DNA from: a virus
Length of the DNA stretch: 24,976 bases
Virus record (IMG/VR): IMGVR_UViG_3300021085_000201
Coordinates: 1 to 24,976 of that record
Direction: 5' to 3' (one strand)
The notes below the pieces were generated by a model. The model saw only the letters and a list, made by a program, of their open reading frames with translations, ran no database searches and had not been told where the DNA came from. The position numbers and the translations under genes were made by a program. Positions 335 through 23,321 of the stretch are shown here, in pieces; the stretch's first letter is position 1, and every line of letters begins with the position of its first letter.

Positions 335-925
335 ATGACTAAGAATGAGTTATTAGCAGAGCTTTACAAGAGCCACAAAAAGTGGGTTGGATTGGCTGTT
401 AAGTTTGTAGGCTCTAATATGTTTGCTGAGGATTTAGTACAAGAAGCATATTTAAAAATACACAGGTCTTTAAAAGACGTTAATAAGATTTTAAACGAAG
501 ATAACGGAATACGATTCGGTTACTTCTACAGTACTTTGTTTAGTGTTTGTATTGATTATAAGAGGGTAAAAAGTAAGCAGCCTCTCGTTGAGTATGATGA
601 GGTTGTTTACTCTTACCAAGTTTTAGAAGCTTTTGACATTAAAGAAAACTATGCCTTCCAGAACTTAATGGATAGTATCGATAAAGAGATAAAGCAATGG
701 CATAGGTACGATATAATGTTTACGGACATTTACTACAAGACAGATATATCTCTAAGAGGTTTAGAGAAGGAAAGCAAGTTTATAGATGAGGATGGTAATC
801 AGTACAAAGGCATAAGCCTAACCTCACTATACAACACATCTAAGAACTGCAAGAGAAGACTAAGAGAAAAGTTTGATGAAGATGCTCAAGATTACTTTAA
901 CGGAGACTACGACAAATTATTATAA
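335..925 (+). CDS. Sigma-70-like (ECF-type) RNA polymerase sigma factor
   Basis: A 196-aa protein with the look of a small sigma factor, which would direct host RNA polymerase to phage promoters. Residues 18-45 resemble region 2.1-2.2, including AEDLVQEAYLKIHR, the typical core-binding helix. Residues 61-80 (FGYFYSTLFSVCIDYKRVKS) fit region 2.3-2.4, which recognises the -10 element. The C-terminal part (about 128-182) looks like a degenerate region 4 helix-turn-helix, interrupted by an insert around DEDGNQYKG and ending in a basic helix KRRLREKF. The gene lies among DNA-metabolism genes upstream of the terminase unit. Inference: it may recognise the ACAAAA-N11-CGTTATA elements before the packaging and virion genes. 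Alternatively it is a sigma-like regulator with another role; region 4 is weak. Confidence 0.7.
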   Translation: MTKNELLAELYKSHKKWVGLAVKFVGSNMFAEDLVQEAYLKIHRSLKDVNKILNEDNGIRFGYFYSTLFSVCIDYKRVKSKQPLVEYDEVVYSYQVLEAFDIKENYAFQNLMDSIDKEIKQWHRYDIMFTDIYYKTDISLRGLEKESKFIDEDGNQYKGISLTSLYNTSKNCKRRLREKFDEDAQDYFNGDYDKLL

Positions 926-3045: not shown

Positions 3046-3586
3046 AACATACAACGTAGAAGCAGCTAAACAATTAGCTGATAAATTTGTAGAAATAACA
3101 GGATTAGATTTAACAAGCACATCAAGATATCAAGAACAAGCATACTTTAGAGCTTTGTTCTATAAGGTAATGTGTGATATAAACGGAATGAATGATAGAA
3201 TGATATCTGAATGGTTTGGAGATATGGGAGTAAAAAGAAACAGGTCATCTATATTCCACGCATTAAGAAAGATAAATGTTTACTATGAAAGCTTTGTTAA
3301 GTTTAGAAATGTTTATGACTTATTCTTTGACGATAAGAAGAAGCAAAGAGAAAGAATAGAAAGCAGGAAGTCTGAAAGGGTTAGGATAATAAACGAAAGA
3401 ATAGATAGAAAGCTTGATGCATCGGATAGAAATAAGATACACGAGTTAGCAGATGTTATTCCAGAAGATAGGATAGATGAGATGTATGAGATGATGACGT
3501 TAAGGATGAAGTCTTGGGCTTGGAAATCAAAAGATAGATGTGAGGTAATACAGAGCAGTACATCAATGGATGGAATGTGCTGGTAA
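3032..3586 (+). CDS. DnaA domain IV-like DNA-binding protein
   Basis: A 184-aa protein whose residues about 31-88 resemble the C-terminal DNA-binding domain of the initiator DnaA: SRYQEQAYFRALFYKVMCDI, then MISEWFGDMGVKRNRSSIFHALRKI. The second part parallels the DnaA signature in which the recognition helix reads RDHSTVLHA; here it is KRNRSSIFHALRK (68-80). No AAA+ ATPase domain precedes it, so it cannot be a full initiator. The rest (90-160) is charged and probably coiled. Family knowledge: stand-alone proteins of this type occur in phages and may bind replication origins or repress host initiation. It is the last gene before the terminase unit; its stop (3584-3586) directly abuts the late-promoter-like motif. 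Confidence 0.55.
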   Translation: MAKLRTYNVEAAKQLADKFVEITGLDLTSTSRYQEQAYFRALFYKVMCDINGMNDRMISEWFGDMGVKRNRSSIFHALRKINVYYESFVKFRNVYDLFFDDKKKQRERIESRKSERVRIINERIDRKLDASDRNKIHELADVIPEDRIDEMYEMMTLRMKSWAWKSKDRCEVIQSSTSMDGMCW

Positions 3587-3616
3587 ACAAAACCTAAACA
3601 TATCGTTATAGTATTA
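3587..3616 (+). promoter_or_regulatory. Putative phage late promoter, copy A (terminase unit)
   Basis: ACAAAA at 3587-3592, an 11-base spacer, CGTTATA at 3604-3610, then GTATTA ending at 3616. The same arrangement with identical spacing occurs at 11116-11145 and 22942-22971. It begins right after the stop codon of the preceding gene and ends 11 bases before the ATG of the terminase unit. It does not match the host TAnnTTTG box. Promoter function is inferred. Confidence 0.55.
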
Positions 3617-3627
3617 AGATTAAACTT

Positions 3628-3999
3628 ATGGCTAAATCAAATGAGATTAAACCTACTGATGGTAGGAAGTATAACAAAAGGAAGAAAGGTCAGTTAGATG
3701 TTGTTAAACCTACTACAGCAGCTATAAACAAAGCTAAGAGAGAAAGGATGAAGGAGTTCGGAGTCAAAGCCATTAAAAAGGTATTTGGTTCTGAACAAGA
3801 CTTCTGGATGAGTCTAGCAGAAGAGGCTAAGAAAAACCATAACGATAGAAAACTATTACTAGAGTATGTCTATGGGAAACCTAAAGATGGGTTTGGTAAT
3901 GCTACACAGAAATCAGCAACACCTGTTATAAATTTCTATGGACACCAACCTCCTACACAAGAAGATATTATAGATGTAACACCAGAAGATGAAGAATAG
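3628..3999 (+). CDS. Putative terminase small subunit
   Basis: A 123-aa protein directly upstream of, and overlapping by 11 bases, the large terminase gene. In that position it is probably the small subunit that recognises phage DNA and loads the large subunit. The N-terminus is rich in Lys and Arg (to about residue 45). A helical middle contains AKRERMKEFGVKAIKKVFGSEQDFWMSLAEEAKK and LLLEYVYGKPKD (77-88), the last being a pattern I associate with small-terminase-like phage proteins. The C-terminus is acidic and probably disordered. I see no clear N-terminal helix-turn-helix, so the call depends mainly on position and the LLEYVYGKP motif. It is the first gene after the late-promoter-like motif. 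Confidence 0.5.
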   Translation: MAKSNEIKPTDGRKYNKRKKGQLDVVKPTTAAINKAKRERMKEFGVKAIKKVFGSEQDFWMSLAEEAKKNHNDRKLLLEYVYGKPKDGFGNATQKSATPVINFYGHQPPTQEDIIDVTPEDEE

Positions 4000-5203
4000 C
4001 ATAAACTTACACGATAAGTACATACCTTTATTCCAAAGCAAGACAAGATACAATGTTATTACAGGAGGTAGGGGTAGTGGTAAGTCTTTTGGTATAAACG
4101 TATTCCTACTAAACCTTACATACGAAAGTGGACACAAGATATTGTTTACTCGTTATACAATGGCATCAGCCAATACATCTATTATACCAGAATTTGTAGA
4201 GAAGATTGATATGATGGGAGTAAATGCTCACTTTAGGATAACTAAGGATGAGATAACTAACCTACAGACAGGTTCTTCCATTATATTTAAGGGTATAAGG
4301 ACATCTAGTGGTAATCAGACAGCAGCACTCAAGTCTTTGAACGGAATTACAACGTTTGTAGTCGATGAAGCAGAGGAACTTGATGATGAAGGTACATTTG
4401 ATAAGATAGATTTCTCTATAAGGTCTCAAAACAAGCAAAACAGGGTTATTTTGATACTAAACCCAACTACAAAGGAGCATTGGATATATCAGAGGTTCTT
4501 TTTAGGTAATATTGTTGATGCAGGTCATAACGGAACTAAAGGAGACACAACTTACATCCATACAACGTATAAAGACAACAAAGATAATCTATCAGACTCA
4601 TTTCTTAGCAGAGTATTAGAGATGAAGGCTAGAAGACCAGATAAATACCAACATCAGATACTAGGAGGATGGTTAGCTAAGGCAGAAGGAACAATTATAA
4701 GAAATTGGAAGGTTGGAGACTACATACAGACAGAAAAGACCATTTATGGGCAGGATTTTGGGTTCTCTGAAGACCCTACAACACTTGTAAAGATTTCTAT
4801 AGATGATTTTAACAATAGAGTCTATGTAAAGGAGATTTATGGTAAAACAGGGCTTTCTACGTCTGATATAGCAAATATGAATAGGGCTGAATGTGGCTTA
4901 GACTTGATAGTTTGTGACTCATCAGAACCTAGACTTATAAAAGAACTAAAGAAGAAAGGATTGAACATACAACCTGCTGTAAAGAAGAGTGGTAGTATAC
5001 TATCTGGTATAGCACTTATGCAGGACTATGAAATAATAGTAGACCCTAGAAGTAAAGGTGTTGTAAGAGAGTTTAATAACTATGTATGGCACGAGAAAGG
5101 TGTAAGACCAATCGATAAGTTTAATCACTTCTGTGATGCTATAAGATATGCCTTGATGAGATTAGCTACAAGTAAGAACAAAGGTATCTACACAATAAGA
5201 TAG
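3989..5203 (+). CDS. terL: Terminase large subunit (ATPase and nuclease)
   Basis: The 404-aa packaging motor that cuts concatemeric DNA and pumps it into the prohead through the portal. The N-terminal ATPase domain has a Walker A motif GGRGSGKS (26-33) and a Walker B motif TFVVDEAEE (123-131) with catalytic Glu. ILILNP (155-160) fits coupling motif III. The C-terminal RNase H-like nuclease domain has three acidic positions: Asp257 in QDFGFSEDP, Asp311 in CDSSEPR, and Asp384 in HFCDAIRYAL. Length is normal for the Terminase_3/3C (PBSX-like) group. It overlaps the putative small subunit by 11 bases and is followed by a strong terminator at 5238-5275, so the two genes form a closed transcription unit. 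Confidence 0.95.
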   Translation: MKNSINLHDKYIPLFQSKTRYNVITGGRGSGKSFGINVFLLNLTYESGHKILFTRYTMASANTSIIPEFVEKIDMMGVNAHFRITKDEITNLQTGSSIIFKGIRTSSGNQTAALKSLNGITTFVVDEAEELDDEGTFDKIDFSIRSQNKQNRVILILNPTTKEHWIYQRFFLGNIVDAGHNGTKGDTTYIHTTYKDNKDNLSDSFLSRVLEMKARRPDKYQHQILGGWLAKAEGTIIRNWKVGDYIQTEKTIYGQDFGFSEDPTTLVKISIDDFNNRVYVKEIYGKTGLSTSDIANMNRAECGLDLIVCDSSEPRLIKELKKKGLNIQPAVKKSGSILSGIALMQDYEIIVDPRSKGVVREFNNYVWHEKGVRPIDKFNHFCDAIRYALMRLATSKNKGIYTIR

Positions 5204-5204
5204 A

Positions 5205-5373
5205 GCGTTTAATATAAAGGGGTGCGTTTATTATGGAGGGGTAACAATTAATTTTGTTGCTCCTTTCTTATTTTTATTCCGTCTTTGTTATGAAGGGGTA
5301 ACTCACTATGTTTAATATGATGGGGTATGTTTAATACGGAGGGGGTACTATGTTTAATATAATGGGGGTGGGG
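5205..5373 (+). repeat. G-rich short repeats downstream of terminase
   Basis: Six degenerate copies of a unit of about 19 bases, roughly gTTTAatAtgrwGGGGtA, occur only on the plus strand. G runs start near 5219, 5238, 5295, 5322, 5341 and 5364. Copies 1-2 and 4-5 are spaced exactly 19 bases apart; the unit starts of copies 5 and 6 are 23 bases apart. Copy 2 also forms the left arm of the terminator at 5238. The stretch is strongly G over C skewed. Position after terL allows a packaging site, an origin with iterons, or protein-binding sites; none is proven. Confidence 0.6.
5238..5275 (+). terminator. Rho-independent terminator of the terminase unit
   Basis: Left arm GGGGTAACAA (5238-5247), loop TTAATT, right arm TTGTTGCTCC (5254-5263). 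All ten pairs form, counting two G-U pairs, and a T-rich tail TTTCTTATTTTT follows. It lies 35 bases after the terL stop and would end transcription of the terminase unit. Confidence 0.75.
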
Positions 5374-5553
5374 TTGCAAATCTGTTGGCTTTTGGCTAAA
5401 AAATAATTTAACAGTTTTTCTTTGGTAGTTTAAAATAGTTTTTGTAGTTGCGTGCCTGTACATTTGTTATGTTTTATGTTACAAAGCTATATTTTGTAAA
5501 AGCATCTAAAAAGCATTAAAAAAAAGTTTTTGTAAAGTTTTTTACTTTTTTTG

Positions 5554-5583
5554 TTGTTTATTAAAAAAACTTTTGTAGATTTG
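5554..5583 (+). promoter_or_regulatory. Bacteroidota-type promoter for the small-gene cassette
   Basis: TTG (5554-5556, preceded by another TTG), 19 bases, then TAGATTTG (5576-5583), an exact TAnnTTTG box. This is the host housekeeping sigma pattern, so the downstream small genes could be transcribed without phage factors. The start of transcription is expected near 5588-5591, about 95 bases before the first gene. Confidence 0.7.
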
Positions 5584-11115: not shown

Positions 11116-11145
11116 ACAAAAAACATAAAAAGCGTTATAAGATTA
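11116..11145 (+). promoter_or_regulatory. Putative phage late promoter, copy B (tail unit)
   Basis: ACAAAA at 11116-11121, 11 bases, CGTTATA at 11133-11139, then AGATTA ending at 11145. The final A is the A of the ATG of the tail chaperone gene. If transcription starts there, as the spacing from a -10-like element suggests, the mRNA has no leader. Spacing is identical to copies at 3587 and 22942. Confidence 0.55.
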
Positions 11146-11864
11146 TGAGTAAAATAGAACTTGATATTAGTATTCCTAACGATTTAAGTGGTATAACTGT
11201 ACAGCAGTACCAAGAATACGCTAAACTATGGGAAGATAACAAGGAAGTGGAAGATTATGAGTTTATCAACAAGAAAACACTAGAGATATTCTGTGGATTG
11301 GACTTAAAAGACTCTTTTAAGATACCAATTAACACTTTTGATACCATATTAAGTCACATAAACGACTGTTTTAATGAGGACAAGCCATTTATAAACAGAT
11401 TTAATATGACTGATGCAGAAGGTATTACTGTAGAGTTTGGTTTTGAGCCATCTCTAGATAAAATATCATACGGAGCATTTAAAGATGCTGAAAATTATAT
11501 GAAAGACGTAAAAGACTTACATAGATTAATGTCAGTTCTTTACAGACCTATAATAAAAGACATAAGCAACAAGTATCACTACAGAATAGCTGAGTATGAG
11601 GGTAGTGATATGTTCTCAGAAGTGATGAAAGATGCACCAGTTAACGTAGCATTGGGAATGCAGGTTTTTTTTTATCGTTTAGGGACAAAATTGTCGAAAT
11701 ATACAATGGACTCTTTAATGGAACAGGCGAAATTAACGACCAACAAGGAAGGAAGGCAGCTTTTGGAAGAAAATGGGGAGATTATCAGTCGTTTTTATGC
11801 CTCGCACAAGACGATGTACGAAGACTTGACGAAGTCTCAAAGCTTCCATTACACCAATGTATGA
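11145..11864 (+). CDS. Tail assembly chaperone, short form
   Basis: A 239-aa protein, the zero-frame product of a probable tail assembly chaperone (equivalent to lambda gpG), which coats the tape measure protein before tail tube polymerisation. The N-terminal part (MSKIELDISIPNDLSGITVQ) resembles Bacteroidota phage chaperone-type proteins. After VFFYRLG at about 174 the zero frame continues to YTNV. A run of nine Ts at 11665-11673 allows a -1 shift into a second frame that is open to 11941. The gene is first in the tail unit and lies well upstream of the tape measure gene, separated from it by tail-completion and tail genes, unlike lambda. Function is inferred from frame structure and context. 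Confidence 0.55.
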   Translation: MSKIELDISIPNDLSGITVQQYQEYAKLWEDNKEVEDYEFINKKTLEIFCGLDLKDSFKIPINTFDTILSHINDCFNEDKPFINRFNMTDAEGITVEFGFEPSLDKISYGAFKDAENYMKDVKDLHRLMSVLYRPIIKDISNKYHYRIAEYEGSDMFSEVMKDAPVNVALGMQVFFYRLGTKLSKYTMDSLMEQAKLTTNKEGRQLLEENGEIISRFYASHKTMYEDLTKSQSFHYTNV

Positions 11865-11941
11865 TGTACTTGGAATATGTACAAGACAGAGCCAAATTAG
11901 AGGCTAGATTAGTAAAAGATATACAAAATAAGAATAGATAA
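11145..11941 (+). CDS. Tail assembly chaperone, -1 frameshift long form
   Basis: Predicted fusion of 176 zero-frame residues with 89 residues from the -1 frame (11672-11938), 265 aa in all. The -1 extension begins LSFRDKIVEIYNGLFNGTGE and includes FGRKWGDYQSFLCLAQDDVR and LPLHQCMMYLEYVQDRAKLE. These resemble C-terminal chaperone segments recalled from other Bacteroidota phages. Its stop TAA (11939-11941) shares a base with the next ATG, the coupling seen elsewhere here, which supports translation of this frame. From 11674 to 11864 both frames are open and protein-like. The longer form would correspond to lambda gpGT, which links the tape measure to tail tube protein. Slippage frequency cannot be read from sequence. 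Confidence 0.6.
11666..11672 (+). other. Programmed -1 ribosomal frameshift site
   Basis: Slippery heptamer T TTT TTT inside a nine-T run (11665-11673), in frame for the zero-frame codons at 11667 and 11670. Both tRNAs can re-pair after slipping one base back. A small GACA/TGTC hairpin about ten bases downstream is a weak candidate stimulator. Confidence 0.6.
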
Positions 11942-12402
11942 TGGCACAAAACCAAGTTTACAACGTACTAGACAGCTTAAAGGCACAATTATTACAGCAT
12001 CCACAATGTAATACTGTTACTACAGGTAACTTATCTGATGTTGACCTAGCAAAAACAACTATATTTCCCTTAACACACTTAATTGTTGATACAACAACCC
12101 TAAGTTCTAGGACAATTACAGTAACACTAAACGTTATTTGTATGGATATAGTCGATATAAGCAAAGATAAAGCTACAGATAACTTCTATGGTAACGATAA
12201 CTCTCAAGATGTCTTAAACACGCAGCTAAACGTCTTAAACTACCTGTTTATGCAATTAAAGAGAGGAGATTTATGGGATGTTAGGCTAATTACCGATAAT
12301 GATATGGATGCAACTCCTTTTATGGAGAAATATGAGAATATGTTAGCAGGATGGGAAGGTTCTATACAAATACAATTACCTAACGAGATAAATATCTGTT
12401 AA
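11941..12402 (+). CDS. Tail or neck completion protein, putative
   Basis: A 153-aa protein, MAQNQVYNVLDSLKAQLLQH at its start, with alternating strands (FPLTHLIVDTTTLSSRTITVTLN, VICMDIVDIS) and a helix before VLNTQLNVLNYLFMQLK. This pattern and length resemble phage tail-terminator or neck proteins that cap the tail tube, and its position before an HK97 gp10-like gene supports this. The start shares a base with the frameshift stop (TAATG), and its own stop shares a base with the next start. Exact role within the head-tail joint is uncertain. Confidence 0.5.
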   Translation: MAQNQVYNVLDSLKAQLLQHPQCNTVTTGNLSDVDLAKTTIFPLTHLIVDTTTLSSRTITVTLNVICMDIVDISKDKATDNFYGNDNSQDVLNTQLNVLNYLFMQLKRGDLWDVRLITDNDMDATPFMEKYENMLAGWEGSIQIQLPNEINIC

Positions 12403-12935
12403 TGGAAAAGAAAAATCTTGTAGCAGAGCTAAATAAGATAGCTGAAGAGTTTAAGGTTAGGCTTCAAAGAGGAGCTAGACTAGATAAGACTGTTGCTACA
12501 GGTAAATTTGCAAATTCATTTAAGGTTAAGGTAGAGGATGACTCTATAGAGATAACATCTGATGCAGAATATGCAAAGTATGTTGTTGATGGTACTTTAC
12601 CGTCAAATAGTAATGCAGGTTGGGAGAAGAAGAAGAGAAATATAGAATCTTGGATAAAAGCTAAAGGTATTAGACCTTACAGAAAGCTAAAGAGTGGATA
12701 TAAGTTTGCGAAAACATCAACACTAAAAGATAGTGCTTATAAAAGTGCTGTTTTTGCTATAATGAATAGTATATCTGAAAGAGGTACAATAAAAAGGTTT
12801 GGCTACAAAGGTAGTAACCTATTTGAAAGAGTGTATAAGGAGATTGAAGGTAAGATAGGTGCTGATATAACGGAAGCATACTCTGAAGATTTAAGAATTG
12901 AATTAAGAAAAATAATAAATATAAGCAATGAGTAA
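12402..12935 (+). CDS. HK97 gp10-like head-tail joining/tail completion protein
   Basis: A 177-aa protein resembling the HK97 gp10 family, which joins heads to tails. Seen: N-terminal helix VAELNKIAEEFKVRLQRG, then TGKFANSFKVKVEDDSIEIT and SDAEYAKYVVDGT (57-69), the typical strand-turn-strand with AEYAxYVxxGT of this family. It has a basic middle (WEKKKRNIESWIKAKGIRPY) and C-terminal helix. It overlaps the preceding gene by one base and the following by eight bases, placing it in the tail-completion cluster. Somewhat longer than typical gp10 proteins. Confidence 0.65.
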   Translation: MEKKNLVAELNKIAEEFKVRLQRGARLDKTVATGKFANSFKVKVEDDSIEITSDAEYAKYVVDGTLPSNSNAGWEKKKRNIESWIKAKGIRPYRKLKSGYKFAKTSTLKDSAYKSAVFAIMNSISERGTIKRFGYKGSNLFERVYKEIEGKIGADITEAYSEDLRIELRKIINISNE

Positions 12936-14082
12936 GATACTAGCAAGAAGTCCTTATTGGATTAATGCAACAGCTACGGATTTAATAAACGCTTCTATAG
13001 AGCTATGGGTTTATAGTGGAGTAACAGTACTTAATAGACCTAATACACCTAGTTACACCATAACCTCTACTGTCACAGATACTCCTAATACTGTGTATTG
13101 GGATATATCTGATTTAGTAAAAGACTTCATCGATACTAAGTATTATATTACTGAAGACAAAGCTGCTGTGTGGGTTGACTATAGAATTACCACAATCACA
13201 GAAACAGGAACAACTGTAGGAGATATACAAACTGGAGACTATGCTGTTTATGGGTATTCTTACTATGGAGAAGGTTATAATTTTACATCTTTAAATGGTT
13301 GCCTTATAGACAATGATATAATATACAAATTAGAAGATAATGACGTCTCTATTCCTTTAGCTAAAAAACTGTTTAAGGATATATCTTTTTTTAACGGAGA
13401 TGAGATAGTTCATTCTGTAGTAAATGATACACCTTCTGATTGGACTGGTTCTGAAGAGCAGATAGAGTACTTTGGTATTAGTGGAGCAACTCCAAACTTA
13501 TACAGTAATTTTGAGCAAAGAATATATTATAAAGGTGGCACTTTTGAGACTAATAAATGTATAGAGGCATTCTTAGATGAAGAGGAAATATATCCTGTTA
13601 CAAAGGTAGTTATTTCTTCTTACGACTCTTCTGTTCCATTGAGAACAATAATTGTAGAAAACATAAGTGAATGTAAATACACTCCTTACAAGATAATATT
13701 TAGAAATAAATATGGTGCTAAGCAAGAATTATGGTTCTTTAAAGCATCTAGACTGTCTATGGAAGTCGAGAGAGAGCAGTATCAAGGAAACACAATAAAA
13801 GACTATAGGGCTGGAAACATATCATCTCACAGGAATGTTGATTTCTATACCACATCTAAAGAGACATTAACTATCAATAGTGGTTTTGTTCCAGAGGAGT
13901 TTAACGAGGTGTTTAAGCAACTTATGCTTAGTGAGCAGGTGTGGATAGATTACAAGCAACAAATATTGCCAATAAATGTATCTAACAAAACAATAGACTA
14001 CAAGACCAAACTAAATAATAAATTAATAAATTACACAATAGACGTAGAATTTTCTTTTAACACAACAAACAACGTTAGGTAG
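12928..14082 (+). CDS. Virion tail protein, unknown subtype
   Basis: A 384-aa protein with mostly beta-strand pattern and no signal peptide or membrane segment. The N-terminus (SKILARSPYWINATATDL, ASIELWVYSG, TVYWDISDLVKDFID) looks like a beta-sandwich domain. It sits between tail-completion genes and the large FN3-containing tail gene, upstream of the tape measure. Many Bacteroidota phages carry a protein of this size in this position, probably part of the distal tail or baseplate, but I cannot name a family. It overlaps the gp10-like gene by eight bases and its stop TAG directly precedes the next ATG. Confidence 0.55.
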   Translation: MSKILARSPYWINATATDLINASIELWVYSGVTVLNRPNTPSYTITSTVTDTPNTVYWDISDLVKDFIDTKYYITEDKAAVWVDYRITTITETGTTVGDIQTGDYAVYGYSYYGEGYNFTSLNGCLIDNDIIYKLEDNDVSIPLAKKLFKDISFFNGDEIVHSVVNDTPSDWTGSEEQIEYFGISGATPNLYSNFEQRIYYKGGTFETNKCIEAFLDEEEIYPVTKVVISSYDSSVPLRTIIVENISECKYTPYKIIFRNKYGAKQELWFFKASRLSMEVEREQYQGNTIKDYRAGNISSHRNVDFYTTSKETLTINSGFVPEEFNEVFKQLMLSEQVWIDYKQQILPINVSNKTIDYKTKLNNKLINYTIDVEFSFNTTNNVR

Positions 14083-17000
14083 ATGAAAAACTTAGAGCTT
14101 TACATAGAAGATGGGAATGGAAACAAAGATAGGATTGACTTGTTTGATTATGAGGCAGTAAACTTAAATCAAAAGATAAAAGATGTAAGAGACATTTCTA
14201 AGATATTTACTGACTATTCGCAATCTTTTAAAGTACCTGCTTCTTCAAATAATAACAGAATATTTAAGCACTATTATAACTACAATATACAAGATGGGTT
14301 TGATGCTAGGTTTAAAAAAGATGGTCTTATACAAATAGGTGGAGCTGACTTTAGGTTTGGAAAGATAAGGCTTGAGGATGTAGATATGAGAAACAATAAA
14401 CCTTATGCTTATAAAATAGTTTTCTTTGGTTCTTCTGTTGCTCTTGCTGAAATACTTGGGGATGCTGAATTATCTAATTTAAATTATTTAGATAAATTTA
14501 ATCATAAATATGACGAAGATAATGTAAGACGAGGACTTGATACAGGGTTAGCTCATTTCTTAGATAACAATGGTGACGACATTATGCTTGAAAGTGCTAT
14601 TGGGGATATTGTTTACCCTTTTATATCTTGTAATTCTTATTACTACTATAGCTCAGATAGTAATGACCACGGAGACCCAAACAGAGAGCCTACTATAGGT
14701 AGAAATTTACGTAAACAAGGAACTTCTTCTCATAATGGTATTGAATACTCAGATTTAAGACCGTCAATAAAATTAAAGCACATAATAAGTGCAATAGAGG
14801 CTCAATACTCAGCACTATTCTTTGATAAGACTTGGATAGACTCTGCTCCTTTTAATGAATTGTACCTACACTTAAATAAAGATAAAGGTACTATGTTAAG
14901 TGTTAACGATAATCAAATTGTTTTTAATGAGTCTGATTTTGGTATTAACACCGAGTTTGGTCAGATAACAACCAATCAATGGGTTAGTTATACACTAACT
15001 TTCAGTATAAGCCCTAATACTGGTACTGGTCCTTATGACTTGAGAGTTGTAGATACTACGTCTGGAGAGATACTAGGAGTTGCTGATGGCTTAGAAGGTG
15101 CTGGTAGTGTTGTAATAGACTATAGTGTTTTGTCATCTCAAGAACCTAGAAATTGGAACTTAAACTTTTTTATAACTACAAAAGAAGGAGGCGACTTAAC
15201 AGACTTTGACGCATCATTAACTATGATTAAGAAGTTCCCAGAATCTTTTATTGGTTTTGCTGTAGCTGTGTATGGCTTTACCGACCCTCCTTACACAAAT
15301 ACTATAAGTTCAGTAGCTTCAGAATTTATAGTTGACATTAAAAGTCAAGCTCCTAAAATGAAGATTATAGATTTCTTGCAGTCTATATTTAAGATGTTTA
15401 ATTTAACAGCTTATTTTCAAAGAGATGAATCTTTACCATCTAAAGCTAGGATAATGCTTCAGCCTTTAAGCTCATACTATTCAGAAGGAGAAGTTATAGA
15501 CGTTTCTGATTATATTGACATATCAGAATCAACAATATCTAGAGCGCCTACATACTCTGAAATAAACTTCAAGTACGCTACACCTAAAACTTTTGGTATT
15601 AAGAGTCAAAACGAGATTCTAATCGATGATTTTGGAGATTTAAGTAGAGATAACAGAGATATAAATAACTTTGTTTCTGATGGTGGAAAGTATGAGGTAA
15701 AGCTAAAGTTTGAGCATTTGTTGTTTGAAAGACTGTCAGATGAAAATGATTTACAAGCACCTAGAACACCAATACAAACAGGTTGGTTAGTTGACAGTAA
15801 TCAAAATACTGTAAAAACTGGACCGATAGTACACTTTGCTGTATCTACACCTGTAAACACAACTAATTACCCTATTGCTTTTACAGGAGCAACTAGTACT
15901 GCAAACCCTTTACTAGATAAGTATTTAAGACCTAGCAATGTTAGTGCTGATGGTTCTCAAACCATAAACTTTAATTACGAGAAAGATGAATATACTGGCA
16001 TAGAGAATGGAAATAGCTTGTATAAAAACTATTATAAAACATACATAGACAAGGCGTTTAATCCATCAACTAGATTGATAAGTGTAAGTGCAAACTTACC
16101 ATTAAGTGTTTTATTGAGGTATAGTTTAAGAGATGTGTTTAGAATAAATGAATTAGACTACAATATAAATAGTCTGCAAACGAACCTACTAACAGGTAAG
16201 TCAAAAATAGAACTTATTAATGGTAGTTTTGCTGAATCACTAATACCAGACACTCCTCATAGTATTTCGGTTACTTCGACAACCAATACCACTATAAATA
16301 TAACTTGGACTGTACCTACAACTGGAATAAGGGCTACTAATTACGCCACTTATGTAGATGGCGTTCAACACGGATATGGGTCTTTAACATACCCATACAA
16401 TAACTCAAACGCTCCAAACGCCTTAATAAAAAACCTCACAATAGGTCAAACGTACTCTATTCAAGTATCTTCATTTAGTTCTGATGGATTAGAGTCTTAT
16501 AGGTCAGATGAGTTAATGGCTTCTACAACGACAACATCTACAACTCCAACAGCTCCATCTAATTTATCTGTTGTTAGTACCCTAGATAATTCTGTACTAC
16601 TTACTTGGACTGCATCAACTTTTGATTCTAATGCAGGAAGCACAGGTTATAATGTTTATGTAAATCACGTTAGTTCTGGACTAGGATTTTTTTTACATTC
16701 AACTGTTTCTAGTGCAGACTTTACTAGTAATAGTTCTCAGTTTAATGTAACAAGTTTATCTGCTGGAACGGAGTATGAATTCAAGGTAAATGCTTTTGAT
16801 TCTTACGCACCTACACCTAACTCTGGATTTAGTAATACTGTTACACAAACAACTACTGACTCTACGGATTTAATTCCTCCGAGTGTTCCTACTAATTTTA
16901 CAGCAAGTAATATAACTACCACTAGCGTAGACCTTTCTTGGTTTCCTTCATTTAATCCAGATGGTACTGCTGCTACTGGGTATAAGGTTTATCAATCAAC

Positions 17001-17145
17001 TACATTAATAGCAAATATTACAAATACTAGTCATACCGTTAACCTTTTAATAAGTGGAAATACTTATAAGTTTTTTGTATCATCTTATGATGCTAACGGA
17101 AATGAAAGTGCTAATGCTGGACCTGTAACTATAACAACACTATAA
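14083..17145 (+). CDS. Large tail/host-contact protein with three FN3 domains
   Basis: A 1020-aa tail protein. The N-terminal region (about 1-140) contains KIFTDYSQSFKVPASSNNN, GFDARFKKDGLIQIGG and YKIVFFGSSVALAEILGD, which I associate with distal-tail-like proteins in Bacteroidota phages. A middle beta-rich region includes a helical linker KIIDFLQSIFKMFNLTAYF near 427. The C-terminus carries three fibronectin type III domains at about 722-815, 823-925 and 930-1018, each with the V/I-x-L/I-x-W signature (INITW, VLLTW, VDLSW) and a later GxxY/E-F-x-V strand. FN3 domains on phage tails often bind cell-surface polysaccharide. It probably forms the tail tip and contacts the host. It lies upstream of the tape measure, with one tiny gene between them. 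Confidence 0.75.
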   Translation: MKNLELYIEDGNGNKDRIDLFDYEAVNLNQKIKDVRDISKIFTDYSQSFKVPASSNNNRIFKHYYNYNIQDGFDARFKKDGLIQIGGADFRFGKIRLEDVDMRNNKPYAYKIVFFGSSVALAEILGDAELSNLNYLDKFNHKYDEDNVRRGLDTGLAHFLDNNGDDIMLESAIGDIVYPFISCNSYYYYSSDSNDHGDPNREPTIGRNLRKQGTSSHNGIEYSDLRPSIKLKHIISAIEAQYSALFFDKTWIDSAPFNELYLHLNKDKGTMLSVNDNQIVFNESDFGINTEFGQITTNQWVSYTLTFSISPNTGTGPYDLRVVDTTSGEILGVADGLEGAGSVVIDYSVLSSQEPRNWNLNFFITTKEGGDLTDFDASLTMIKKFPESFIGFAVAVYGFTDPPYTNTISSVASEFIVDIKSQAPKMKIIDFLQSIFKMFNLTAYFQRDESLPSKARIMLQPLSSYYSEGEVIDVSDYIDISESTISRAPTYSEINFKYATPKTFGIKSQNEILIDDFGDLSRDNRDINNFVSDGGKYEVKLKFEHLLFERLSDENDLQAPRTPIQTGWLVDSNQNTVKTGPIVHFAVSTPVNTTNYPIAFTGATSTANPLLDKYLRPSNVSADGSQTINFNYEKDEYTGIENGNSLYKNYYKTYIDKAFNPSTRLISVSANLPLSVLLRYSLRDVFRINELDYNINSLQTNLLTGKSKIELINGSFAESLIPDTPHSISVTSTTNTTINITWTVPTTGIRATNYATYVDGVQHGYGSLTYPYNNSNAPNALIKNLTIGQTYSIQVSSFSSDGLESYRSDELMASTTTTSTTPTAPSNLSVVSTLDNSVLLTWTASTFDSNAGSTGYNVYVNHVSSGLGFFLHSTVSSADFTSNSSQFNVTSLSAGTEYEFKVNAFDSYAPTPNSGFSNTVTQTTTDSTDLIPPSVPTNFTASNITTTSVDLSWFPSFNPDGTAATGYKVYQSTTLIANITNTSHTVNLLISGNTYKFFVSSYDANGNESANAGPVTITTL

Positions 17146-17146
17146 T

Positions 17147-17287
17147 ATGTTAAAAGATATAATAGATTTATTAAACGAAGATGATTGGCTAATATCTGAT
17201 GAAGATATATTAATAGCTAAAGGAAAATATCAATCCATTACAAACTGGAAAGAATTTAAGTACAACATAAAACAAAGAAGATTATAA
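17147..17287 (+). CDS. 46-aa peptide before tape measure, unknown function
   Basis: A 46-aa peptide, MLKDIIDLLNEDDWLISDED at its start, ILIAKGKYQSITNWKEFKYN in the middle and IKQRRL at the end. It begins one base after the large tail gene stop and ends one base before the tape measure start, filling the gap exactly, which supports translation. Helical and acidic at the start and basic at the end. No family recognised. Confidence 0.5.
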   Translation: MLKDIIDLLNEDDWLISDEDILIAKGKYQSITNWKEFKYNIKQRRL

Positions 17288-17288
17288 G

Positions 17289-19616
17289 ATGGCAGATAAT
17301 AAAAATGATATACTTTTAAAGTTAAAGATACAGACTGACAAAGCTAATGCTGCGTTAAAGAAAACTGAAGTACAAATAAAAAAGACTATACAGTCTTTTA
17401 AAGGATTAACAAAAGGAAGCTTACAATATCAAGAGGCTCAAGCTAGGCTAGCTAGTCAACAAGCTACTTATGCTCAACAGTCTGAAAAATACAACAATTC
17501 TTTAAGAATTCAAACAGCTGCTCAAGCTAGTGCTACTAAACAAACTAATCAGCTAGCTAGTGCTTCTGGTGGCGCTACTACATCTGTATTAGAACTTGGT
17601 AGAATAGTATCTGATGCACCATACGGTATTAGAGGTATGGCGAATAACATATCTCAATTAGCTTCTAATATGTTGTTTACTTCTCAGCAGGTAGATAAGA
17701 CTAGTGGAAAGATTATAGGTTTTAGTGGTGTTTTAAAGCAGATGGGTAAAACTTTTATGGGACCTTTAGGTTTACTATTCTTAATTCAAGGAGCTATTGC
17801 GTTACTGGACGGTTTTGCAGGTGGAGCTACTAAAGCTAAAGAAAGTACTCAAGATTTAACTAAAGAGGTTTACGCTAATGCAATAGTAATGAGTGGTTAT
17901 GTGGATGAACTAGAGGATGTGAATATTTCAGAAGAGAGAAGAAAGGTAGTGGTTCAAGAACTCACAAAAACAATACCAACACTTACTGCTGCTGACTTGG
18001 AGTATGGAAAAAACCTAGATAATGTAAGATTAAAGATTAAGCAATATACTTTGGCTCAAGCTAGTAGAATTGAAATGGATAAATTAGTTCAAGAAAATTC
18101 AGAACTATTATCTAAACAAATGAAGGTGGATTTAATAAACTCTACAGAAGACCAAGAAGAGAAGATAAAATTAATAAAAGGTTTGTTTGTAGATGCAGGA
18201 ATTGAGACTCAAAAACTGGTTCAGCAATCTTATTCTATGGGTCAAAAAAGTATGACATTGAGAGATAAGACAAACAAAGAACTGATAAGAGACTTTAAGG
18301 AGTTAGCTAAGGGGATAAAAGAAGAGTCAGACCCTATAATAGATAGAATAGAAAGGTTGAGTCAAGGGTTAGTTTTAGAACCTAGCAAGTCAAGTAAAGG
18401 TAAAGGAAAGGTTAAGAAACTATCTCCATTCGCAACACCTAAAGAATTAGAGATAGATGTAAAGAACGCAGAGAACGCTATTATACAATACGAAAAACAG
18501 ATAAAGGAGGCTAGGCTAAAAGAAGAACTTAACGATAAATTATCTGAAGCAACTACAGAAGAAGAAAAGAAAAAGATAAGAGAACAATATCAGTTAGATA
18601 GATTGAAAAATCAATTAAATGCTGAGAAGAAGATGCTAGACTTGAAGTTGGCTACAGAAAAAAAAGTAGTCAATACTAAAAGAGATAATCATATAGCAGA
18701 CTTAAAAAGAGCCACAGACCTTTACATACATAAAGTAAAGCTAAATGATAAGTTATCTGCTAAAGAGAAAGAGCAAATGATAGGAATAGCTAAGTCTCAA
18801 TTACAAATAGCTACCAATCAAGCAAATACAGAAGCAGATGATGCTATAACTCAAATTAAAGACAAGTATAAAACTTTATTTGGTTTCTTTGAGCAATTAG
18901 GAATAGCAAGAAAAGACGCTTTAATTTCTGGATTTGGAGCAGTCGAAGATGATGATTTAACTGGTATGGAAAAGTTTGCAGAAAAGTTTAACGCAATATC
19001 TTCATCTGTAACTGACTTTATGAATGGAGAATTTGATAGACAAATGACTATAGAGCAGAACAAGACTAATGCTTTAAATAATGAATTAAGAGAAAGATTG
19101 AATAATGAAAGTCTATCTGCTGAAGAAAGAAAGAATATTCAACTACAGATAGCTAGAAACGATGAAGAGTTAAGAAAGAAGCAAGAAAAGATAGAAAAGA
19201 AAAGGTTTAGAATGAATAAGGCTGCACAAATAGCAGGTGCTTTAGTTAATACTGCAGCAGCTGCAGCAGGAGTTATGGCTGATGCTAAAGGTGGTTTCTT
19301 CACGAGACTAGCACAGGCTCTACCTACTATTGCATTTGGTTTAGGTCAAGTAGCTATTATAGCTAGACAAAAGTTTCAATCTAGTGCTGGAGCAACAACA
19401 CCTGCTGGTGCGTTAGGTGGTGGTGGCTCTGGTAGTGGAGATAATACTCGAGAGTTTAACTTTAACTTAGCAGGTAGCACACAATCAAATCAGCTAACAC
19501 AATCAATAGCTGGTCAATTAAGCCAACCAATACAAACGTATGTGGTTTCATCAGAAATAACAAGTCAACAACAATTAGATTTAAATATAGCTAACACAGC
19601 AACAATAGGAGGTTAA
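17289..19616 (+). CDS. Tail tape measure protein
   Basis: A 775-aa protein that sets tail length and later helps DNA entry. Evidence: long coiled-coil regions rich in Lys, Glu and Gln (15-90 and about 385-660), two hydrophobic segments (MGPLGLLFLIQGAIALLDGF near 157-176, and an Ala/Gly-rich stretch at about 642-692), and a flexible Gly/Ser/Gln-rich end. The segment LELGRIVSDAPYGIRGMANN (101-120) is a signature I associate with tape measure proteins of Bacteroidota phages. At about 0.15 nm per residue the length predicts a tail of roughly 115 nm. It is preceded by a 46-aa peptide and followed 11 bases later by the prohead protease gene. The length and hydrophobic segments make a siphovirus likely. 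Confidence 0.85.
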   Translation: MADNKNDILLKLKIQTDKANAALKKTEVQIKKTIQSFKGLTKGSLQYQEAQARLASQQATYAQQSEKYNNSLRIQTAAQASATKQTNQLASASGGATTSVLELGRIVSDAPYGIRGMANNISQLASNMLFTSQQVDKTSGKIIGFSGVLKQMGKTFMGPLGLLFLIQGAIALLDGFAGGATKAKESTQDLTKEVYANAIVMSGYVDELEDVNISEERRKVVVQELTKTIPTLTAADLEYGKNLDNVRLKIKQYTLAQASRIEMDKLVQENSELLSKQMKVDLINSTEDQEEKIKLIKGLFVDAGIETQKLVQQSYSMGQKSMTLRDKTNKELIRDFKELAKGIKEESDPIIDRIERLSQGLVLEPSKSSKGKGKVKKLSPFATPKELEIDVKNAENAIIQYEKQIKEARLKEELNDKLSEATTEEEKKKIREQYQLDRLKNQLNAEKKMLDLKLATEKKVVNTKRDNHIADLKRATDLYIHKVKLNDKLSAKEKEQMIGIAKSQLQIATNQANTEADDAITQIKDKYKTLFGFFEQLGIARKDALISGFGAVEDDDLTGMEKFAEKFNAISSSVTDFMNGEFDRQMTIEQNKTNALNNELRERLNNESLSAEERKNIQLQIARNDEELRKKQEKIEKKRFRMNKAAQIAGALVNTAAAAAGVMADAKGGFFTRLAQALPTIAFGLGQVAIIARQKFQSSAGATTPAGALGGGGSGSGDNTREFNFNLAGSTQSNQLTQSIAGQLSQPIQTYVVSSEITSQQQLDLNIANTATIGG

Positions 19617-19627
19617 AAACAATAATT

Positions 19628-20665
19628 ATGGAAGATTTAGACATCATAGAATTAATAATAGACGAAAACAATCTAGAGGATGGGATAGAAGCTATCTCAC
19701 TAGTAGAAAGTCCTGCAATAGAAGAAAACTTTGTAGCTTTAAGTAGACACAAAGTAGAATTCAAATCTGTAGATGACGAGAAGAGAATTGTAGTAGGACT
19801 AGCTTTAGTTCCAGACAAGGAAATATTTAGAAAAAGTGGAGACTACGCTTACAAGATAATGTTCTCTAAAGAGACTGTTAAGAAAGCATCTGAACTTTAC
19901 CTTAAAAGACTAAAGAATAATAATGCTACGATAGAACACGAATTAGCAGTAAAAGGAGTATCTCTCATAGAGTCTTGGATAGTAGAAGACCCTAATATGG
20001 ATAAAACTAACTTATACAAGTTAGATGCTCCAGAAGGTGCTTGGGCAGTAGTTATGAAGATTGATAACGATGAAATATGGGAAGATGTAAAGCAAGGTAA
20101 ATATCTTGGTTTCAGTATAGAAGGTTTCTTTAGTCAAAAAGAACAAGAGTTAGCTAAACAAGACTTAGTAGAATACCCTCATATTATGTACAACCCTAAG
20201 ACTGGAGATGAAGTAAAAATAATGGATAAAGAAGAACACGACAAGTATACAGCAAAAGGTTGGGTGCATAGCAAACCAGAAGGATACAAAGAAGAAGAAT
20301 TAAAGTCTTATAGTGATTACCCACAGTCTGCAACTAACAATGCTAAAAGAGCGTTAGCTTGGGTTGAAAAGAATGGTTGGGGAAGTTGTGGTACTCCTGT
20401 TGGAAAACAAAGAGCAAATCAACTAGCTAATAGAGAGCCACTAACTAGAGATACAATATCTAGAATGGCATCATTTAAAAGACATCAGCAACATAAAGAT
20501 GTGCCTTATTCGGAAGGATGTGGTGGTCTTATGTGGGATTGCTGGGGAGGAACTAGTGGTGTTGAATGGGCAATAAACAAGTTAGAGAAGTTATCTTTAT
20601 CTGAAGAAGATACTGAAGCTTTAGCAGTATTAAATAAAATCCTAAACAAGTTAAAAGATGAGTAG
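19628..20665 (+). CDS. Prohead protease (XkdF-like) with C-terminal extra domain
   Basis: A 345-aa protein. Residues about 40-170 resemble XkdF-like phage serine proteases that trim scaffold and capsid in the prohead: RIVVGLALVPDKEIFR (53-68), TIEHE with His104 as candidate catalytic residue, SLIESWIVEDP (112-122), and LGFSIEGFF with candidate nucleophile Ser163. A middle segment EYPHIMYNPKTGD (182-194) to GWVHSKPEGY follows. The C-terminus (228-318) is a Trp/Gly-rich domain with NNAKRALAWVEKNGWGSCGT and GGLMWDCWGGTSGVEWA that I recall in other phage head-maturation proteins; its function is not known to me. It precedes the scaffold and capsid genes, as expected for a maturation protease. Confidence 0.75.
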   Translation: MEDLDIIELIIDENNLEDGIEAISLVESPAIEENFVALSRHKVEFKSVDDEKRIVVGLALVPDKEIFRKSGDYAYKIMFSKETVKKASELYLKRLKNNNATIEHELAVKGVSLIESWIVEDPNMDKTNLYKLDAPEGAWAVVMKIDNDEIWEDVKQGKYLGFSIEGFFSQKEQELAKQDLVEYPHIMYNPKTGDEVKIMDKEEHDKYTAKGWVHSKPEGYKEEELKSYSDYPQSATNNAKRALAWVEKNGWGSCGTPVGKQRANQLANREPLTRDTISRMASFKRHQQHKDVPYSEGCGGLMWDCWGGTSGVEWAINKLEKLSLSEEDTEALAVLNKILNKLKDE

Positions 20666-20798: not shown

Positions 20799-20836
20799 TT
20801 GGAAAATACAACAATATTTATATTACTAGTTATTAG

Positions 20837-20849
20837 TGTTATAGAGTTA
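20837..20849 (+). promoter_or_regulatory. Degenerate late-promoter core, copy D (scaffold-capsid)
   Basis: TGTTATAGAGTTA matches ten shared positions of the CGTTATA-N3-TTA core of the three full copies, but ACAAAA is absent at the expected distance. It lies 20 bases before the scaffold start in a gap of 71 bases. It could be a weaker or differently regulated member. Confidence 0.35.
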
Positions 20850-20869: not shown

Positions 20870-21340
20870 ATGAAAAGTCCAAAAGAAATTGTAGATGCTT
20901 TCAAAAGTATTTTACTTTCTTCTGAAGAAGTAGTTGAAACACCTGTAGAAGAGGTTGTTGAACTAGCTGAAGAAAAAGTAGAACAAGCTGAGGAAGTTAT
21001 CGAAGAAGCTCCTATCGCAGAAGAAGAAGTTATTTCTGAAGATTCAGATATTGAATCACTAAAGAAGAAATACGATTCTTTATACGAAGAGTTAGATTCA
21101 TTAAAGGCTTCTGTTAAGCAGATGATGGAAATCGTTTCTCCTTCAGAAGAGAAAGATGTTCCTGCTGAGTTATCAGAGGAAGTAGAAATTAAGGAAGAAG
21201 TTACTGAATTATCTGTAGAAGCAGAAGAAATAGTACATTCTCCAGAAGCTCAAGTAGAGCAAAAACAACAACATTTATATTCACAAAGCAGAAGTAGAAC
21301 TGTGAAAGATTCAATCTACAACAAACTATTTAATAAATAA
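20870..21340 (+). CDS. Capsid scaffold protein, putative
   Basis: A 156-aa, very acidic protein with long Glu/Val-rich stretches (ETPVEEVVELAEEKVEQAEE), a probable coiled coil SLKKKYDSLYEELDSLKASV (64-83), and a basic C-terminal end SRSRTVKDSIYNKLFNK. This combination (acidic, helical, basic C-terminus) immediately upstream of the major capsid gene is typical of internal scaffolds, where the basic tail binds the capsid protein. No sequence family was recognised. It would be cleaved by the upstream protease or expelled during maturation. Codon use leans towards the highly expressed type seen in the capsid gene. Confidence 0.7.
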   Translation: MKSPKEIVDAFKSILLSSEEVVETPVEEVVELAEEKVEQAEEVIEEAPIAEEEVISEDSDIESLKKKYDSLYEELDSLKASVKQMMEIVSPSEEKDVPAELSEEVEIKEEVTELSVEAEEIVHSPEAQVEQKQQHLYSQSRSRTVKDSIYNKLFNK

Positions 21341-21346
21341 AAAAAG

Positions 21347-22276
21347 ATGGCAACAACAACTTCAATTACAACAACTTACGCAGGAGAAAAAGCAGCAGGG
21401 TACATCTCAGCAGCTTTATTATCTGCAAATACTATCGAAAACGGTGGTATTACTGTTAAACCAAATGTAAAGTTCAAGCAAGTAATCAAGAGACTTTCTA
21501 CCACAGACTTAATCGCTGATGGAAGCTGTGATTTCGCTGCTACTGACACTGTTACTTTAGACGAGAAAATCTTACAACCAGAGGAATTCCAAGTAAACTT
21601 AAACTTGTGTAAATCTGATTTTAGAGATGACTGGGATGCAATATCTATGGGATATTCTGCATTTGACAACTTACCTCCTTCTTTCCAAGAGTTTTTAATC
21701 GCTGAGATTATTGCTAAGATTGCTGACAAGAATGAGAAAAATATCTGGATGGGTGCTACTGCAACTGCTGGAGAATTTGACGGATTAGTAGCTTTAGCTA
21801 CTGCTGACGGAACTGTAAACGATGTAGTAGGAACTACTGTTACTTCTGCTAACGTAATCGCTGAAATGGGTAAAGTAGTAGACGCTATGCCTTCTGCATT
21901 ATACGGAAAGTCAGATGTAAAATTATACGTTGCTCAAAACGTTTATAAAGCTTATGTAAGAGCTTTAGGAGGATTTGGTGCTGACGGAGTAGGAGCTGCT
22001 GGTTACGAAGCAAAAGGAAATAACCAAGCTATCAACTCATTATTATTTGATGGAGTAGAGGTATTCTTAGCAAACGGATTAGACTCTAACTATATGTACT
22101 TAGCTGAATCTTCTAACATCTTCTTTGGAACAGGATTATTATCTGACCACAACGAAGTAAAAGTATTAGATATGGCTGACATTGATGGTTCACAAAATGT
22201 ACGTTTCGTAATGAGATTTACTGCAGGTGTACAACACGGATTTGGTTCAGACATCGTTCTTTACACTCCAGCTTAA
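21347..22276 (+). CDS. Major capsid protein
   Basis: A 309-aa protein in the position after scaffold, with alpha/beta composition and many Ala and Gly residues, as in HK97-fold capsid proteins. Supporting segments include FQEFLIAEIIAKIADKNEKN (114-133), an analogue of the spine helix region, VKLYVAQNVYKAYVRALGGF (around 200-215) and VRFVMRFTAGVQHGFGSDIV near the end. The codon use is visibly different from neighbours: many aac, atc, gta and gct codons, as in very highly expressed genes. It begins six bases after the scaffold gene and is followed by a GC-rich hairpin at 22298. The fold is inferred from pattern and context. Confidence 0.8.
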   Translation: MATTTSITTTYAGEKAAGYISAALLSANTIENGGITVKPNVKFKQVIKRLSTTDLIADGSCDFAATDTVTLDEKILQPEEFQVNLNLCKSDFRDDWDAISMGYSAFDNLPPSFQEFLIAEIIAKIADKNEKNIWMGATATAGEFDGLVALATADGTVNDVVGTTVTSANVIAEMGKVVDAMPSALYGKSDVKLYVAQNVYKAYVRALGGFGADGVGAAGYEAKGNNQAINSLLFDGVEVFLANGLDSNYMYLAESSNIFFGTGLLSDHNEVKVLDMADIDGSQNVRFVMRFTAGVQHGFGSDIVLYTPA

Positions 22277-22297
22277 TTAACTGATTATTAACAATAA

Positions 22298-22318
22298 CCC
22301 TCCTCTTTGTGGGGAGGG
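22298..22318 (+). terminator. GC-rich hairpin after capsid gene
   Basis: CCCTCCTC (22298-22305), loop TTTGT, GGGGAGGG (22311-22318), eight pairs including one T-G. There is no T tract after it, so it is a partial terminator or an mRNA 3'-end stabiliser, allowing unequal expression of the capsid and downstream tail tube genes. Confidence 0.6.
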
Positions 22319-22340
22319 ATATTAAAACCCAATACAACAA

Positions 22341-22874
22341 ATGGCTTGTGATTTAACATTAGGAAGAAAAGAAGTATGTAAAGATTCGGTTGGAGGTATA
22401 AAAGCTATCTACTTCTCGAATTTTGAAGATACTACTACTGCTAGTTACACATTTGATTCTTCTGATACAGACGTTATTGACGCTGTGTCTGGAACACCAA
22501 ATGTATACAAGTATGAAGTAAGAGATGCTTCTTCTTTCACGCAAAATATTCAGTCTAGTGCTGAAACAGGAACTACTGCCTTCGAACAAGTAGTTGAATT
22601 GACCTTGAAAAAATTAACTGTTGATGACCATAAAGAATTAAAATTACTTTCTTATGGTAGACCAAGAGTTATCGTTCAAGACCAAAATGACAATTACTTT
22701 TTAGCTGGACTTGAGAATGGCTGTCAAGTAACTGCTGGTACTATCGTAACAGGACAAGCAATGAATGACCTAAGTGGTTATACATTAACTTTAACTGGTA
22801 TGGAAAAGAGACCTGCTAACTTCTTGGATTCTGACCCTGCAACTGTAGGATTTACTGTTGTAGTTCAATCATAG
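22341..22874 (+). CDS. Probable major tail (tube) protein
   Basis: A 177-aa beta-rich protein beginning MACDLTLGRKEVCKDSVGGI. That opening, with KDSVGGIKAIYFSNF, is one I recall from abundant tail proteins of Bacteroidota phages. Size and the run of strands (VYKYEVRD, FEQVVELTLKKL, PRVIVQDQNDNYFLAG, GYTLTLTGME) fit a tail tube subunit. The codon use resembles the capsid gene, consistent with many copies per virion. It is 64 bases after the capsid gene, between a leaky hairpin and a strong terminator. Alternative: a capsid decoration protein, which is also abundant and adjacent to the capsid gene. Confidence 0.6.
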   Translation: MACDLTLGRKEVCKDSVGGIKAIYFSNFEDTTTASYTFDSSDTDVIDAVSGTPNVYKYEVRDASSFTQNIQSSAETGTTAFEQVVELTLKKLTVDDHKELKLLSYGRPRVIVQDQNDNYFLAGLENGCQVTAGTIVTGQAMNDLSGYTLTLTGMEKRPANFLDSDPATVGFTVVVQS

Positions 22875-22904: not shown

Positions 22905-22932
22905 AGGTCTACTTCGGTAGACCTTTTCTTTT
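22905..22932 (+). terminator. UUCG-loop Rho-independent terminator
   Basis: AGGTCTAC (22905-22912), TTCG tetraloop, GTAGACCT (22917-22924), perfect eight-pair stem, then TTTTCTTTT. It closes the scaffold-capsid-tube unit and is followed ten bases later by the late-promoter-like copy C. Confidence 0.9.
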
Positions 22933-22941
22933 GCAATAAAA

Positions 22942-22971
22942 ACAAAAAAGTAAATATACGTTATAAGTTTA
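22942..22971 (+). promoter_or_regulatory. Putative phage late promoter, copy C (portal unit)
   Basis: ACAAAA at 22942-22947, 11 bases, CGTTATA at 22959-22965, AGTTTA ending at 22971, whose last A is the A of the ATG. It follows a strong terminator, so a promoter is needed here. As with copy B, a leaderless transcript is predicted. Confidence 0.6.
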
Positions 22972-23321
22972 TGATTAGATTATTGCCAACATCAAGCTCA
23001 CAAACTTTTTCTATCTTACCTAGAACATTAGATACAACAGGTATCGATGCTACAATAAGAGAAGACGGAACAGGCAACGTAGTAACAATTTCAAATGTTA
23101 CAGCATCAGTCAACAATGACTACATAGATATAACTCTATCTTCAGATAAGTTTATAGCTGAAAGAGCCTATGTCTTAGAGATGACTAGAGGTGCGAATTT
23201 ATGGTATAGAGATAAGATATACGTTACAAGTCAAACAGACACGGATATTTACCATACTATAAATACTGGTTACTATGAAGAGAACGATACAGATGGCGAT
23301 GATAAATACATAACAATATAA
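22971..23321 (+). CDS. Small virion-associated protein, unknown function
   Basis: A 116-aa protein with beta-strand pattern: MIRLLPTSSSQTFSILPRTL, GNVVTISNVTASVNNDYIDI, RAYVLEMTRGANLWYRDKIY. Length, composition and position before the portal gene suggest a structural protein, perhaps a small beta-sandwich. The ATG coincides with the end of the promoter-like motif; no other start would keep the conserved-looking N-terminus. The stop shares a base with the portal start (TAATG), so production may be coupled. I recall similar short proteins in Bacteroidota phages but no named family. Confidence 0.6.
   Translation: MIRLLPTSSSQTFSILPRTLDTTGIDATIREDGTGNVVTISNVTASVNNDYIDITLSSDKFIAERAYVLEMTRGANLWYRDKIYVTSQTDTDIYHTINTGYYEENDTDGDDKYITI

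Follow-up and report, generated by a model that had tools for sequence, protein, structure and literature searches.

The tail genes of IMG/VR virus record IMGVR_UViG_3300021085_000201 are preceded by a 30-nt bipartite element, ACAAAA-N11-CGTTATA-N3-TTA, that recurs before other virion or packaging genes, which raises the question of whether these units share a phage-specific late promoter and what might read it. The window analysed here is the entire virus record (24,976 bases). Sequence comparison was used to assess the motif, its conservation and position, its spacing to open reading frames, the family of a candidate sigma factor, the co-occurrence of the two and the coherence of the motif within genomes.

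Occurrence of the motif in the window

An exact pattern search of the record gives three zero-mismatch copies, all on the + strand (3587-3616, 11116-11145 and 22942-22971; Table 1), and these alone, in accordance with the initial annotation, which had placed identically spaced copies before the terminase, tail and portal units. The reverse strand and a reversed-pattern control each give no match over the whole record. With up to three mismatches the window contains five matches against 1.12 expected, a number reached in none of 100 shuffles, and the two weaker matches (4134 and 17020) are intragenic. Bare GTTATA is found 32 times against 31 expected, which is chance level, so that the core is uninformative by itself and the signal lies in the flanks and the position. 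A loose PWM applied to whole genomes scores intragenic matches as high as real sites and was too noisy to use; position and conservation were therefore relied upon instead. The motif is specific only in combination with position. The same bipartite element stands at several late units and the exact element nowhere else in the window.

A further copy before the scaffold-capsid genes had been annotated as core-only. The copy is real, but its register had been misassigned, the core being GTTATT at 20829 and not GTTATA at 20838; the relative L090 keeps the former and has lost the latter. In the corrected register AAC lies 19 nt before the G, as in the other copies, and the scaffold genes of distant relatives carry AACA...GTTAT(C/A) at the corresponding place. 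The leader from the predicted start to the ATG at 20870 is 30 nt long, and that of the terminase copy, from the end of the motif to the ATG at 3628, is 12 nt. The pattern search finds no host sigma-A site (TTG...TAnnTTTG) at any of the three exact copies. Outside genes, TTG-N-TAnnTTTG occurs only at 5554-5583 (+) and 10131-10101 (-), both before non-virion genes, which agrees with the annotated restriction of host-type promoters to such genes, although the total in the window (four against 3.1 by chance) is not enriched.

The large terminase is assigned by Pfam (Terminase_3, 5.8e-33) and by PHROG terminase matches, and the tail unit runs into an XkdF-like head protease from 19628. Two further features of the window lie outside the late units. 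A repetitive GGGGT-rich stretch without a clear gene (gtttaatatgatggggt and variants) occupies 5210-5480, 3' of the terminase gene, and the reverse-strand frame at 10509-10868 matches a dATP/dGTP diphosphohydrolase N-terminal domain (Pfam, 8.9e-10), which hints at nucleotide-pool or modified-base metabolism.

Table 1. Features of the window, with the sister-clade RNA loci in the last row
Feature	Position	Strand	Description and basis
ECF-like phage sigma factor (putative)	335-925	+	196 aa, stop included; Pfam, profile, AlphaFold2, Foldseek
Terminase-unit late promoter (predicted)	ACAAAA 3587-3592, CGTTATA 3604-3610, predicted start A 3616	+	Exact match
Terminase unit	3628-5203	+	Small terminase candidate 3628-3999, by position only; large terminase 3989-5203
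Tail-unit late promoter (predicted)	11116-11145	+	Exact match; predicted start A 11145 = A of ATG
Tail unit	11145-20665	+	HK97-gp10-like, fn3 protein, tape-measure candidate; Pfam, PHROGs
Scaffold-capsid late promoter, degenerate (predicted)	AACAAT 20810-20815, GTTATT 20829-20834, predicted start ~20840	+	Register; conserved in near relatives
Scaffold candidate, capsid protein, 177-aa protein	20870-22874	+	PHROGs 11320/1623 and 19091
Intrinsic terminator	22905-22932	+	AGGTCTAC-TTCG-GTAGACCT then T-run; terminator scan; directly 5' of portal-unit promoter
Portal-unit late promoter (predicted)	22942-22971	+	Exact match; predicted start A 22971 = A of ATG
116-aa protein	22971-23321	+	First gene of portal unit
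Portal protein	23321 to record end (24976)	+	Phage_portal 1.3e-07, under curated cut-off
Structured RNA (sister clade)	L199:1592-1811 (-), L191:16382-16588 (+), L194:276-486 (-), L203:14719-14924 (+)		And 8 further loci

Conservation in related phages

Searches with TerL and portal yielded about 160 related IMG/VR loci, grouped as near relatives (94-100% TerL identity) and distant relatives (63-76% TerL or portal). Among isolates, only the Nonlabens phages P12024L and P12024S (NC_018272 and NC_018271) have a portal homolog, at 34% identity. Late-unit starts orthologous to those of the window carry the element in all three groups, with the general wording AAAACAAA-N~12-(C/A)GTTA(T/A)(A/C/T). 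This distribution supports the phage-specific late promoter class put forward in the initial annotation and bears out its expectation that, in the full record and in relatives, the element would mark the starts of late units. A side observation concerns the host: a contig with a 42% portal homolog (CAJQMT010000024.1) is binned to an uncultured Flavobacteriaceae genome, which supports a flavobacterial host.

In near relatives both boxes are fixed and the spacer and flanks vary, except that two loci have a single T-to-C change in their terminase copy. The tail copy is conserved in five distinct near-relative sequences, and the portal copy keeps both boxes with a variable spacer in eight. Conservation sets in at the ACAAAA box, also in those relatives whose upstream gene or terminator has been replaced. 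Among the near relatives L008, L016, L022 and L033 the segment just 5' of the terminase promoter (3500-3590) is swapped and promoter and terminase are constant, as if the terminase promoter served as a recombination boundary.

At the corresponding unit starts of distant relatives the element reads AAAACAAA-N~12-(A/C)GTTATC(A/T)TANTAT, and each of the longer genomes contains three to five copies between genes, which stand at the terminase, tail, protease or scaffold-capsid, and portal units. The seven copies of P12024L head terminase and virion-type modules; the wording in the two Nonlabens phages is AAAACAAA-N~12-CGTTA(A/T)TA, before gp01, the portal unit, gp08, the terminase unit, gp42, gp45 and gp46. 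No copy lies at the replication-gene starts of P12024L among those displayed, and the motif is absent at gene starts in RAP44 and Harreka_1, two non-relatives. On this evidence the motif is very likely to be a promoter.

A phage-encoded sigma factor as candidate reader

The gene at 335-925, in the block upstream of the terminase and not remarked on in the initial annotation, encodes a protein with the traits of an ECF sigma factor: region 2 (residues ~3-81), a flexible linker (~82-100) and a region 4 helix-turn-helix (~102-188), with no regions 1.1 and 3. Its Pfam Sigma70_r2 match scores 28.6 bits, above the cutoff, and the same family is matched by 13 of 14 homologs. A profile of these 14 homologs matches Mycobacterium SigL (17-168) and Bacillus SigW (29-185) across both domains. 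The best NCBIfam match, TIGR02937, reaches 25.8 bits in the window protein, under the 42.9 cut-off, and 34-37 bits in relatives. The AlphaFold2 model (pLDDT of 78) consists of two helical domains joined by a linker, and the top 25 Foldseek hits in the PDB are essentially all ECF sigma factors, at E ~1e-3 and with a low global TM that we ascribe to the lack of a fixed orientation between the two domains. An 11-residue insert within the region 4 helix-turn-helix is present only in the near clade of the window among the 14 homologs aligned.

Motif and phage-encoded sigma co-occur. Of 17 relatives, 16 have a homolog, as does P12024L (E of 2e-5); the one relative in which none was found (G008, locus L113) is a 30-kb fragment that carries the motif. 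Neither of the two non-relatives, RAP44 and Harreka_1, has one. A tblastn search of isolated phages with the window protein gave no match, and the P12024 protein was reached through its annotation as a Sigma-70 region 2 protein (gp35 in P12024L, gp33 in P12024S). A profile scan of IMG/VR with just the sigma factor gave at least 492 related stretches, and the matches listed include a large family of related phage ECF-like sigmas at 29-39% identity (L205-L283). Among these listed matches, GTTA shows a modest excess at a distance of 11 nt from the following ORF start, with 20 occurrences where other distances typically have ~8 (uncorrected for relatedness), and some of the loci carry a variant wording, TACAAAAACACGAAA-N-GTTATTA. 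The pairing of sigma factor and motif may thus extend further.

The product of 335-925 is likely to be the reader of the motif. In the mechanism that we propose, the motif would serve as core promoter for a late transcription programme specific to the phage, and both of its boxes would be read by host RNA polymerase core carrying the phage sigma, region 4 recognizing AAAACAAA and region 2 recognizing (C/A)GTTA(T/A)N. Since the terminase, tail, scaffold-capsid and portal modules each have their own copy, synthesis of the sigma factor would turn them all on together. Early genes would apparently depend on host-type promoters (5554 and 10131), with the reservation that the four matches in all are at chance level. 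Binding of the motif and late expression are what we infer from the comparisons above, and taken together the element and its putative reader probably represent a phage-specific, ECF-type late promoter class.

Within-genome agreement of the motif letters

In seven genomes, with sites taken from P12024L and from the copies of the longer relatives, the letters at positions -1 and +5 are identical in 100% and 95% of comparisons within a genome, versus 45% and 41% between genomes (permutation p of 0.0002). Because the copies within a genome are non-homologous and their letters nevertheless agree, one trans-acting reader per phage is indicated. Such agreement would also be expected from a trans-acting factor other than the phage sigma, for example an activator or a host ECF sigma.

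Reading by an alternative ECF sigma of the host instead of a phage protein is improbable, although flavobacteria have several such factors and a promoter class with a CGT box at -10 has been assigned to an ECF sigma in Flavobacterium psychrophilum SM6 (PMC9723704). Those promoters belong to the same host class and are alike in the -10 CGT, but they constitute a host regulon, and the comparison made here covers the -10 element (PMC9723704). The motif, by contrast, co-occurs with the phage sigma, and its letters vary between phages while being uniform within each, which a phage-encoded reader fits better.

Slightly less probable still is a site at which a phage activator binds and brings in the host sigma-A holoenzyme, with the phage sigma serving other genes. 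The within-genome coherence needs just one trans-acting factor and would be satisfied by an activator; the motif, however, has no dyad or repeat, the distant copies lack the host TAnnTTTG box, and the geometry (AAAAC, 15-16 nt, CGTT, 11 nt to the start) matches an ECF core promoter. The SigW promoter reads TGAAAC-N16-CGTA, with the same geometry as AAAAC-N15/16-CGTT, and the flavobacterial CGT box at -10 likewise accords with an ECF-type phage sigma as reader.

Distance to the start codon and predicted leaderless mRNAs

A relaxed search gave 307 distinct matches, and in 85 of them an ORF begins within the 45 nt that follow the G of GTTA. The distance from this G to the ATG is exactly 11 nt in 34 of the 85, the next commonest distance accounting for 7 of them, and the null distribution is flat. 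We infer that transcripts begin on the final A of the motif, about 11 nt past the G of GTTA. This position agrees with the 11-nt spacing, and its distance of 12 nt from the C of CGTT is the usual one for a -10 element. At the tail and portal units the predicted start coincides with the first base of the start codon, and initiation at this position would leave many late mRNAs leaderless, an outcome that we regard as moderately likely. In F. psychrophilum, leaderless transcripts account for only about 5.5% of the host's mRNAs (PMC9723704).

The same overlap could mean that the element is a translation-initiation signal of strongly expressed virion genes, with an A-rich leader and a TTATG context, since in many copies it ends at the start codon and since Bacteroidia ribosomes do not recognize Shine-Dalgarno sequences (PMC9976891). 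This reading was rejected on the distant copies and is very improbable: copies 23-30 nt from an ATG and copies without an ORF have unchanged boxes and mostly retain the TANTAT stretch, and one copy follows directly after a terminator. Variant host sigma-A promoters are the least credible explanation, and were likewise rejected on the distant copies, for although the portal copy includes TAAGTTTA, which departs from the host -7 box TAnnTTTG at a single position, and host-type sites precede non-virion genes in the window, the distant and P12024 copies lack TAnnTTTG and have an invariant GTTA.

Comparison with known systems

The nearest experimentally proven parallels to the proposed ECF-type system are the sigma factors of phages 7-11 and phiEco32, from both of which it differs in wording, phage family and predicted leaderless architecture. 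The late sigma of phage 7-11 (SaPh711_gp47) likewise works with host core RNA polymerase at bipartite promoters before late units (GTAAtg-(16)-aCTA, with the start 6-9 bp from the element), but 7-11 is a Salmonella phage, its promoter wording is unrelated and the available part of its description does not mention overlap with start codons (PMC8948821). The phage sigma gp36 of phiEco32 likewise works with host core, taking control of middle and late genes, but at a single-element promoter (tAATGTAtA) and with no region 4 homology, unlike the two elements and region 4 of the window system (PMC8948821). In P12024L and P12024S the late modules are likewise headed by the motif, and a Sigma-70 region 2 protein is annotated; the difference lies in the -10, which is mostly CGTTAAT. 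T4 gp55 is also a phage sigma for late genes, acting at TATAAATA; it has no -35 recognition and needs the sliding clamp and gp33, and its motif is unrelated.

In the literature searched, which did not include the P12024 genome paper itself, there was no prior description of a late sigma or late promoter in Bacteroidota phages and no promoter analysis of P12024L/S. Regulator and promoter together would constitute a late-gene switch for marine Bacteroidota phages, with Nonlabens P12024L as a cultured test system. The overlap of many of these promoters with the start codon makes it testable whether ribosomes that are independent of Shine-Dalgarno sequences translate leaderless phage late mRNAs. 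The motif could also serve to flag late genes in marine phages that have not been cultured.

A structured RNA in a sister clade

The motif also leads to a conserved RNA that would be expected to be co-produced with late genes. In a sister clade a divergently pointing promoter copy lies beside the tail promoter, with no conserved ORF behind it. The sequence behind this copy (~205-220 nt) is conserved in 12 loci and has stops in all frames. In its main structure 96.6% of cells are paired, against 35-43% when the alignment is slid by one to three columns, and 15 of 27 pairs show changes on both sides. The fold contains a long covarying stem and a pseudoknot-like helix (GCACCC/GGGTGC). A gathering search with four source sequences gave no Rfam match, and the covariance model, run with and without filters, does not place the RNA in the window (best score 15.6 bits, E of 0.19). 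Its position behind a divergent late-promoter copy predicts late synthesis. We consider the chances about even that a widespread group of marine flavobacterial siphophages place their whole late programme under an ECF-type sigma, with start-codon-fused promoters and leaderless virion mRNAs being common, and that the ~210-nt structured noncoding RNA of the sister clade, a family not in Rfam, is made by the same sigma. The covariance model detects the RNA in related phages, and an exact 24-mer from it occurs in 18 viral stretches.
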